This document shows positions 452-2,068 of a stretch of 64,000 nt of DNA, in pieces; position 1 is the stretch's first letter, and each line of letters begins with the position of its first letter. The notes beneath the pieces were generated by a model that was not told the DNA's origin, searched no databases, and saw only the letters and a list, made by a program, of their open reading frames with translations. The position numbers were made by a program, and so were the translations under genes. Source of the DNA: Verrucomicrobiaceae bacterium (GTDB taxonomy: Bacteria > Verrucomicrobiota > Verrucomicrobiia > Verrucomicrobiales > Verrucomicrobiaceae); assembly GCA_027489965.1 (NCBI GenBank), contig JAIXZA010000162.1, positions 186,001 through 250,000 of the forward strand, in the 5' to 3' direction.

Positions 452-1186
452 TTATCGCGGCGGATTGTCTGAATCCAGGAAGTAAATCCAATGCTGCACA
501 AAGAAGCGTTTCTCAGTGGGTAGCAGTTCGTCCGCTGTGCCGATGAGCGGCCGCAGGGAAGTGGACATTTGCAGTGTGACTACGGTGAAAAGGATGATCC
601 ATAGCTTCAGGTAGCTTTTGCTTTGCAGGCCTAGACTGCCGGCCGCGTTAAGGAGCAGACGTGTGCCGAAGTACATGCCGATGACCCAAAAGATGAGGGC
701 TAAAAAGCCCATGAAACCAATGGAATCTGTTGAGGTGCTAAACACCCAGATAACCGGTGCAAAGCCGAGCATTAAGAGTCCGCTTAGTGCGACCATGCTG
801 AGCAAAACGGAGACGATTTGATGCAGGCGTGCATTCAGTCCGTCAAGGGCGCTGAAGATGTAAAGGCTCGGCAAACAAATCATCACGGCAACGATCATTC
901 CGACCGTGATTTTCAGCGGTGCCGCCCAAAGCTGGGTGCCGCCGGAGAAGCTGCCTAAAAGAAGACCAAAGACGGAGAGAGATACGATCATGATGATCAG
1001 CAGGCGTAGTGCGACAGCACTGTTTCCTGACTGACAGGCATGCAACAAACGACCTGGATGTTTGAGCAGGTTTTCCATGATGTTAGCGAGAGTCGTTGGA
1101 CCTTCCATAGGCTCGATTGCAAAGTTCGAGACTTGTTTTGGCAACGCAGATGGCGAAGCCGATTCTGGTGTGGGTTCTGTATTCAT
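452..1186 (-). CDS. Polytopic membrane protein, paralogue of the upstream gene
   Basis: The 244-residue protein has a polar N-terminus of about 60 residues followed by five or six hydrophobic spans, so it is an inner-membrane protein. Near the C-terminus it reads SLRPLIGT, and the neighbouring 1232-2023 protein has NLRPFFGN at the equivalent place before its last helix. The two therefore look like diverged paralogues. It follows that gene by 45 bp on the same strand, and the pair is probably co-transcribed from the promoter near 2040-2068. The layout resembles Yip1-like or other small integral-membrane families. I do not recognise a specific function, and there are no catalytic motifs or charged residues typical of transporters. 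Confidence 0.75.
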   Translation of the reverse strand: MNTEPTPESASPSALPKQVSNFAIEPMEGPTTLANIMENLLKHPGRLLHACQSGNSAVALRLLIIMIVSLSVFGLLLGSFSGGTQLWAAPLKITVGMIVAVMICLPSLYIFSALDGLNARLHQIVSVLLSMVALSGLLMLGFAPVIWVFSTSTDSIGFMGFLALIFWVIGMYFGTRLLLNAAGSLGLQSKSYLKLWIILFTVVTLQMSTSLRPLIGTADELLPTEKRFFVQHWIYFLDSDNPPR

Positions 1187-1231: not shown

Positions 1232-2023
1232 TTAGCGTGCATTCAAGCGCCTTAGCGCCAAAAACATGGGCACGATGAGGGCGATCAGGAAGAGCCAGAG
1301 CATTAGACTGGTGATGGAACCGGAGGCCCCAGAAAGCATAGTCCAGACGGACTCATAAAAATTGCCATTAAAGGGATCAGCCCGCAGAAATTGAACCGGT
1401 AATTGAGGGTTCCCAAAAAAGGGACGCAGATTGTAAGAAAGCTGTGCTCCGACAAAAAGGTTGCCAGCTAGCCAAGAAATGAGCGTTCTCCAGCCGATGC
1501 TGACATTGCCGGAGAAGGTTTGGATCAGACGTAGCAGTTTGTGATTGGCCACGATGCCCGCAAAGGCAATGATGGCGGTGTTAAATAACAGAAACAGCCG
1601 ATACCAATCCGAGGCACCTGTTTGACCAGGTCGTGGTGAATCGATGACAAGAGCTATGATGATCGGGCTGAGCGAGCCAACGATGAGACCAAAGATGGCA
1701 AAGCTCATCAAGCAGGCAGTCATGGTTTGCTTAAATGACATTCCAGAGCCTAGCAACTGCCCCAACATGCCATTGATCATCCCATTCACGGCTAGAGTCA
1801 GAAAGATCAACAGGGGCATTTTTATAGCCACAAAAACACCTTGAAGTGGAGCCCTCCAAAGTCCGAGACCAAAGCCATAAGCCGCACATCCGGCGATGAT
1901 CGCCAGGATCAGTGGAGCCGCCGAATGGACAGTCAACGGCTCACGTAACCAAGCCGCTAATAGCGCAGGCTCACCACGTGCCAAAGTCTTCAGCTTGGAA
2001 AGAATGGCGGCTGGCGATCTCAT
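1232..2023 (-). CDS. Polytopic membrane protein under palindromic operator control
   Basis: The ORF track extends this gene to 2068, but the ATG at 2023 (MRSPAAIL) is preferred. A near-consensus promoter (TTGACA, 17 bp, TATAAC) occupies 2040-2068, so the first 15 codons of the longer ORF would be promoter DNA. The resulting 263-residue protein has about six transmembrane spans and ends in LALRRLNAR. The motif NLRPFFGN and the following FYESVW are shared in position with the downstream paralogue. With transcription starting near 2033, the leader is only about 10 nt and has no Shine-Dalgarno sequence. Function is unknown. A stress- or ligand-controlled membrane module is an inference from the operator structure. 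Confidence 0.75.
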   Translation of the reverse strand: MRSPAAILSKLKTLARGEPALLAAWLREPLTVHSAAPLILAIIAGCAAYGFGLGLWRAPLQGVFVAIKMPLLIFLTLAVNGMINGMLGQLLGSGMSFKQTMTACLMSFAIFGLIVGSLSPIIIALVIDSPRPGQTGASDWYRLFLLFNTAIIAFAGIVANHKLLRLIQTFSGNVSIGWRTLISWLAGNLFVGAQLSYNLRPFFGNPQLPVQFLRADPFNGNFYESVWTMLSGASGSITSLMLWLFLIALIVPMFLALRRLNAR

Positions 2024-2044
2024 AACTTTGTTGTGCAAAGTTAT
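2022..2044. promoter_or_regulatory. Operator O2: ATAACTTTG-N5-CAAAGTTAT palindrome over -10 and start codon
   Basis: There is a perfect 9-bp inverted repeat with a 5-base spacer (TTGTG). It shares the ACTTTG-N5-CAAAGT core with the neighbouring palindrome and spans from the -10 element to the initiator ATG. No regulator gene lies next to it within the window, so the cognate DNA-binding protein would act in trans. Confidence 0.65.
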
Positions 2045-2068
2045 ATACTTTGTGAAACAAAGTGTCAA
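2040..2068 (-). promoter_or_regulatory. Sigma70-type promoter for the membrane-protein operon
   Basis: On the minus strand TTGACA (2068-2063) is separated by exactly 17 bp from TATAAC (2045-2040), a 6/6 and a 5/6 match to the consensus. Transcription would start near 2033, about 10 nt before the ATG at 2023. The -35/-10 spacer is almost wholly filled by one palindrome, and the -10 is overlapped by a second, so repressor binding would block RNA polymerase directly. Confidence 0.7.
2047..2063. promoter_or_regulatory. Operator O1: ACTTTG-N5-CAAAGT palindrome in the promoter spacer
   Basis: The plus strand reads ACTTTGTGAAACAAAGT, a perfect inverted repeat with 7-bp arms around GAA (equivalently ACTTTG-N5-CAAAGT). 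It sits between the -35 and -10 elements. Its centre (2055) is 22 bp from the centre of the second palindrome, about two helical turns, so two dimers would bind the same face. Confidence 0.65.

Follow-up and report, generated by a model that had tools for sequence, protein, structure and literature searches.

Repressors of the PadR, ArsR and MarR types are dimeric winged-helix proteins that recognize paired half-sites and whose operators overlap promoter elements. The system described here appears to follow the same logic, although its candidate regulator, which we denote R, fits the PadR and ArsR models less well than HTH_34 (PF13601). Like the HTH_34 protein PH1061 (PDB 1ub9), which is the closest and only match to R among solved structures, R is a single-domain winged-helix protein of approximately 100 aa. 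HTH_34 is a family delimited by sequence, and our search of the literature for HTH_34, PF13601 and PH1061 returned nothing relevant and no described operator or regulon.

With respect to gene order, a described counterpart is the SdpR-SdpI system of Bacillus subtilis, in which an ArsR-type autorepressor acts on its own operon, sdpRI (PMC6818787). Here, too, the gene of a membrane protein (M) adjoins that of a small, repressor-like one (R). The putative operators lie upstream of M. Nevertheless, R is not a member of the SdpR family (21 bits against the NF033789 cut-off of 100), M could be matched to no family, and SdpC-like toxin genes were not observed. Another point of comparison is the CreBC-CreD (Cet) system, of which the CreD protein is required for envelope integrity in Stenotrophomonas (PMC4689548). 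In Bacteroidota CreD belongs to the R operon, and in some Verrucomicrobiales it follows tandem operators, but CreBC exerts two-component control whereas here the control would be that of a one-component winged-helix protein, and in the genome studied here the putative targets are, unlike in the Cre system, a pair of membrane protein genes, A-B, and ispH.

In the window, i.e., the whole stretch of 64,000 nucleotides that was analysed, two perfect 17-base copies of the palindrome ACTTTG-N5-CAAAGT are located 22 bp apart upstream of gene A, as had been noticed. The features of the locus, in the direction of transcription, are as follows.

Positions 2063..2068, minus strand: -35 hexamer TTGACA, assigned from the sequence; TTGACA with a 17-bp spacer is also found in L018, L019, L021 and L022.
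Positions 2047..2063, minus strand: putative operator 1, ACTTTGTTTCACAAAGT, in the -35/-10 spacer, assigned from the sequence and from the layout in relatives.
Positions 2040..2045, minus strand: -10 hexamer TATAAC, assigned from the sequence; orthologues have TATAAC, TTATAC or AATTAC at this place.
Positions 2025..2041, minus strand: putative operator 2, ACTTTGCACAACAAAGT, extending from the end of the -10 hexamer to 1 base before the ATG.
Positions 1232..2023, minus strand: gene A, encoding a 263-aa multi-spanning membrane protein.
Positions 452..1186, minus strand: gene B, second in the A-B operon, encoding a 244-aa membrane protein, a distant paralogue of A.

The minus strand reads TTGACA, CTTTG-TTTCA-CAAAGT, A and TATAAC, in agreement with the TTGACA-17-TATAAC promoter noticed earlier, with one palindrome in its spacer: operator 1 fills the 17-bp spacer (2062-2046) and shares the last base of the -35 hexamer. 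Operator 2 (ACTTTG-CACAA-CAAAGT), which had been placed over both the -10 hexamer and the start codon, does overlap the final two bases of the -10 hexamer and spans the likely start point, but abuts the start codon rather than covering it, stopping 1 base before the ATG (2023-2021) of the sequence ATG AGA TCG. An open reading frame start at a TTG codon (2068), which would place both operators inside the coding region, turned out to be wrong: the start is assigned to the ATG at 2023 because, in the orthologues, the ATG lies 0-2 bases past operator 2 and nothing is conserved at the protein level before it. This near-consensus promoter is missing from the promoter-scan output because the scanner requires T as the last base of the -10 hexamer.

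The palindromes are real and occur far beyond chance. The expectation for perfect ACTTTG-N5-CAAAGT copies is 0.003 per window and 0.29 per genome, and that for an adjacent pair is approximately 5e-9; the 6.5-Mb genome contains only 3 copies, namely the A-B pair and a single one beside R. The window contains 21 perfect palindromes of the 6-N5-6 form, whatever their sequence, and the A-B pair is the only one with the same arms within 60 bp; such a pair appeared in none of 60 simulated windows. One-mismatch copies elsewhere in the genome are located mostly inside ORFs and were treated as chance occurrences. It is highly improbable that the palindromes work in RNA or represent chance or a mobile repeat. 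Each half could give rise to a short hairpin, and a similar palindrome is repeated with a 40-bp period in Saccharibacillus (L151, L183), but any transcript from the A-B promoter would start downstream of the 5' operator, and the sites are single, promoter-linked and undispersed in the genome, and keep their position while N5 changes.

The third perfect site (C36:321834) is located on the same contig, 134 kb from the A-B pair, between the gene for R and ispH (lytB). R is a 101-aa winged-helix protein that matches HTH_34 with 77.4 bits (cut-off 27, E = 1e-21), and its residues 16-94 align to positions 2-80 of the 80-position profile, i.e., over the whole domain, as expected of a member of this family. 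A homologue search of the genome retrieves a single match, R itself. The gene for the membrane protein M is immediately upstream of R and is preceded by two one-mismatch sites, the order of the operon being M-R-ispH-diiron protein. A ferritin/AurF-like protein ends the R operon in Verrucomicrobiota and in Mucilaginibacter (L004:5139-5915, L244:5558-6310). The AlphaFold2 model of M (pLDDT 76) is all-helical, and a search of the PDB with this predicted fold gave no match at E <= 0.001. The genome encodes two IspH proteins, one of the bacterial type (283 aa; C36:320954-321772, L313) behind the R-linked operator, and a plant/cyanobacterial-like one (412 aa; C108:6271-7290, L314) that has no operator. 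The presence of this second gene elsewhere without an operator suggests that the R-linked IspH is a regulated isozyme.

Taken together with the comparative data below, we consider it very likely that the palindromes are tandem operators of R, which would be the autoregulated repressor in charge of a regulon for envelope and isoprenoid functions. A dimeric regulator that is not encoded nearby had been proposed, and an HTH_34 gene with the same sites at a distance of 134 kb fits this proposal in the window genome; the same does not hold in one genus (g33) where R is adjacent to A-B. In that genus, the order is operator-M-R-operator-ispH-A-B (G142 and G164; in G211 the operon can be followed up to A, where the contig ends), and therefore A-B is physically tied to R.

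In related genomes, the palindromes co-occur with R. Across 56 relatives, perfect sites are present in 34 of the 37 genomes with an intact R versus 2 of the 19 without it, and in both of the latter genomes the sites lie inside ORFs (Fisher p = 2e-9, a value that overstates independence given the relatedness of the genomes). Within the genus, almost every R locus contains a pair of sites 33-35 bp apart before M and one more, about 1 kb later, in the R-ispH gap. In the consensus of 82 sites, which were collected at <=1 mismatch, a choice favouring the core, CTTTG...CAAAG is nearly invariant and T-flanked, followed by [TC]...[AG] within N5.

Upstream of the orthologues of A, where the palindromes were expected to recur, they are indeed found in close relatives, albeit with losses. 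The A promoter with its 17-bp spacer and the 22-bp operator spacing are kept in three genomes (G024, G034 and G019) in which N5 has changed; the same 22-bp spacing of sites is found upstream of A in G081, a single site is retained in G005, G187 and G151, and a 17-bp-spaced pair is located farther upstream of A in G037, G050 and G097. The operators at A-B were lost in two genomes of the same genus that possess R (G028 and G012) and in most R-containing members of family f2, and there is none at A-B in G044, where R is broken, or in G041, where it is absent. In G220, an 87% complete draft in 1230 contigs, the operators are present and R was undetected. Altogether, an upstream operator accompanies 17 of the 33 A-B loci in genomes with R versus 1 of the 14 in genomes without it (p = 0.004, ignoring relatedness). 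This conservation upstream of close orthologues supports the identification of the tandem operators, and the position of the sites is what would make their action repressive. The converse, that R binds but activates, or alternates between activation and repression, appears unlikely: in other families (G045, G050, G037) some sites precede A by 100-200 bp, and one lies inside the R-ispH gap, but at A-B the sites occupy the spacer and the region over the -10 hexamer and the start of a promoter close to consensus, an arrangement that would repress.

Homologues of gene A are present in 111 of the 289 genomes of the order. A and B stay paired wherever both could be checked, and the surrounding genes mostly vary among genomes. 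The motif LRP(F/L)(F/I)G, noticed originally as common to both proteins, is found as LRPFFG and LRPLIG; their relationship as paralogues, which is weak in direct BLAST comparison (22%, E = 0.04), is supported by homologues in G049 that match both A and B. Neither A nor B nor M has a significant match in Pfam or NCBIfam, which led us to abandon an initial assignment to a YIP1-like family. The AlphaFold2 model of A, built from three sequences, is too poor for use (pLDDT 48).

When a collection covering 84,980 species was scanned for pairs of perfect sites within 30 bp, at least 118 stretches were retrieved. Homologues of both M and R occur in Verrucomicrobiota, Bacteroidota, an Acidobacterium MAG and Planctomycetota; no operator site was found in the planctomycete M-R loci examined. 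Most of the examined Bacteroidota have sites before M and again behind R, ahead of the gene that follows it. In Mucilaginibacter and a Pedobacter, this following gene encodes CreD. The operon ends with a diiron-like protein that shows homology to its counterpart in the window genome (26%, E = 9e-21). The Acidobacterium MAG combines M-R with tandem sites and uppS, and in Henriciella (Alphaproteobacteria) a site accompanies M-R. In Eremiobacterota, sites are present at an R-ispH locus and operators also border M-R, and in Actinobacteria tandem sites are found near R homologues together with an unrelated membrane gene.

Several loci deserve separate mention. In other Verrucomicrobiales (L105, 4733-4784; L129, L137 and L171), perfect tandem operators are located upstream of CreD, beside the gene for an ABC-3 metal transporter permease. 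In five Bacteroidota loci (L130, L138, L144, L148 and L149), tandem sites precede genes for a small membrane protein, a beta-lactamase-like serine hydrolase and a membrane protein of about 414 aa, which may be further targets of R. The tandem matches in Saccharibacillus, Desulfobulbaceae and Clostridium were judged unrelated to R. Those of Saccharibacillus (L151:6312-6448, L183:5335-5431) are arrays of 40-bp period with ACTTTGCTTCGCAAAGT, located in L151 between the genes for the ATP synthase alpha and gamma subunits, and in Clostridium polynesiense (L163:5035-5072) a tandem ACTTTGACTATCAAAGT, FabT-operator-like, adjoins genes for fatty-acid synthesis as well as one of the MarR type.

The palindromes might also be bound by another regulator, of the MarR/FabT or PadR type, the nearness to R merely reflecting shared use. 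Some tandem matches in other phyla do adjoin other regulators, such as the MarR-like gene at ACTTTGACTATCAAAGT in C. polynesiense (L163), and R itself is weakly ArsR- and PadR-like. R scores 27.4 bits with PadR PF03551 (cut-off 27), far under its HTH_34 score, and does not reach the cut-off of TIGR03433. On the other hand, the sequence of the Clostridium site is of the type TTTGA-NNN-TCAAA, whereas the R-linked sites prefer TTTG[TC]...[AG]CAAA, and among the relatives the sites occur together with R, whose gene they border in several phyla, so that we regard a different regulator as quite unlikely.

With R as the regulator, we propose the following mechanism. R, presumably dimeric on each palindrome as the palindromic form of the sites suggests, would bind the A-B promoter, and its occupancy of the spacer and the start region together would repress this promoter, probably by blocking RNA polymerase given that the operators sit on promoter elements. 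By means of two further copies of the site, R would also repress its own M-R-ispH-diiron operon. Under this scenario, A-B would be an accessory member of an inner-membrane/isoprenoid-supply regulon; the recurrence of CreD, IspH and UppS as neighbours suggests a function in envelope/isoprenoid-carrier homeostasis. A signal from the inner membrane might reach R via M, its upstream-encoded neighbour, which is favoured as the source because R lacks a ligand domain of its own and is constantly accompanied by M. Taken by itself, such a sensor role of M, for which gene order provides the basis, is conceivable but somewhat doubtful.

Tandem operators as such are of a known kind. The M-R module, its operator and their spread across phyla are undescribed in the literature searched, which is not proof of novelty. 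It is a reasonable, if still tentative, possibility that they represent an ancient, multi-phylum, one-component envelope-response module, in which M, a protein of an unassigned fold family, would control the HTH_34 repressor R that reads ACTTTG-N5-CAAAGT, and in which the lineage-specific targets, namely CreD, an alternative IspH, UppS and A-B, would jointly adjust the inner membrane and the supply of isoprenoid carrier.

What had been an orphan promoter motif is now linked to a specific regulator gene, and the uncharacterised membrane protein families A, B and M are connected with CreD, a second IspH and UppS. The operator and R together provide a search key for the regulon in several phyla, including the poorly studied Verrucomicrobiota, and whether envelope stress or isoprenoid supply is handled by a single small repressor becomes directly testable.
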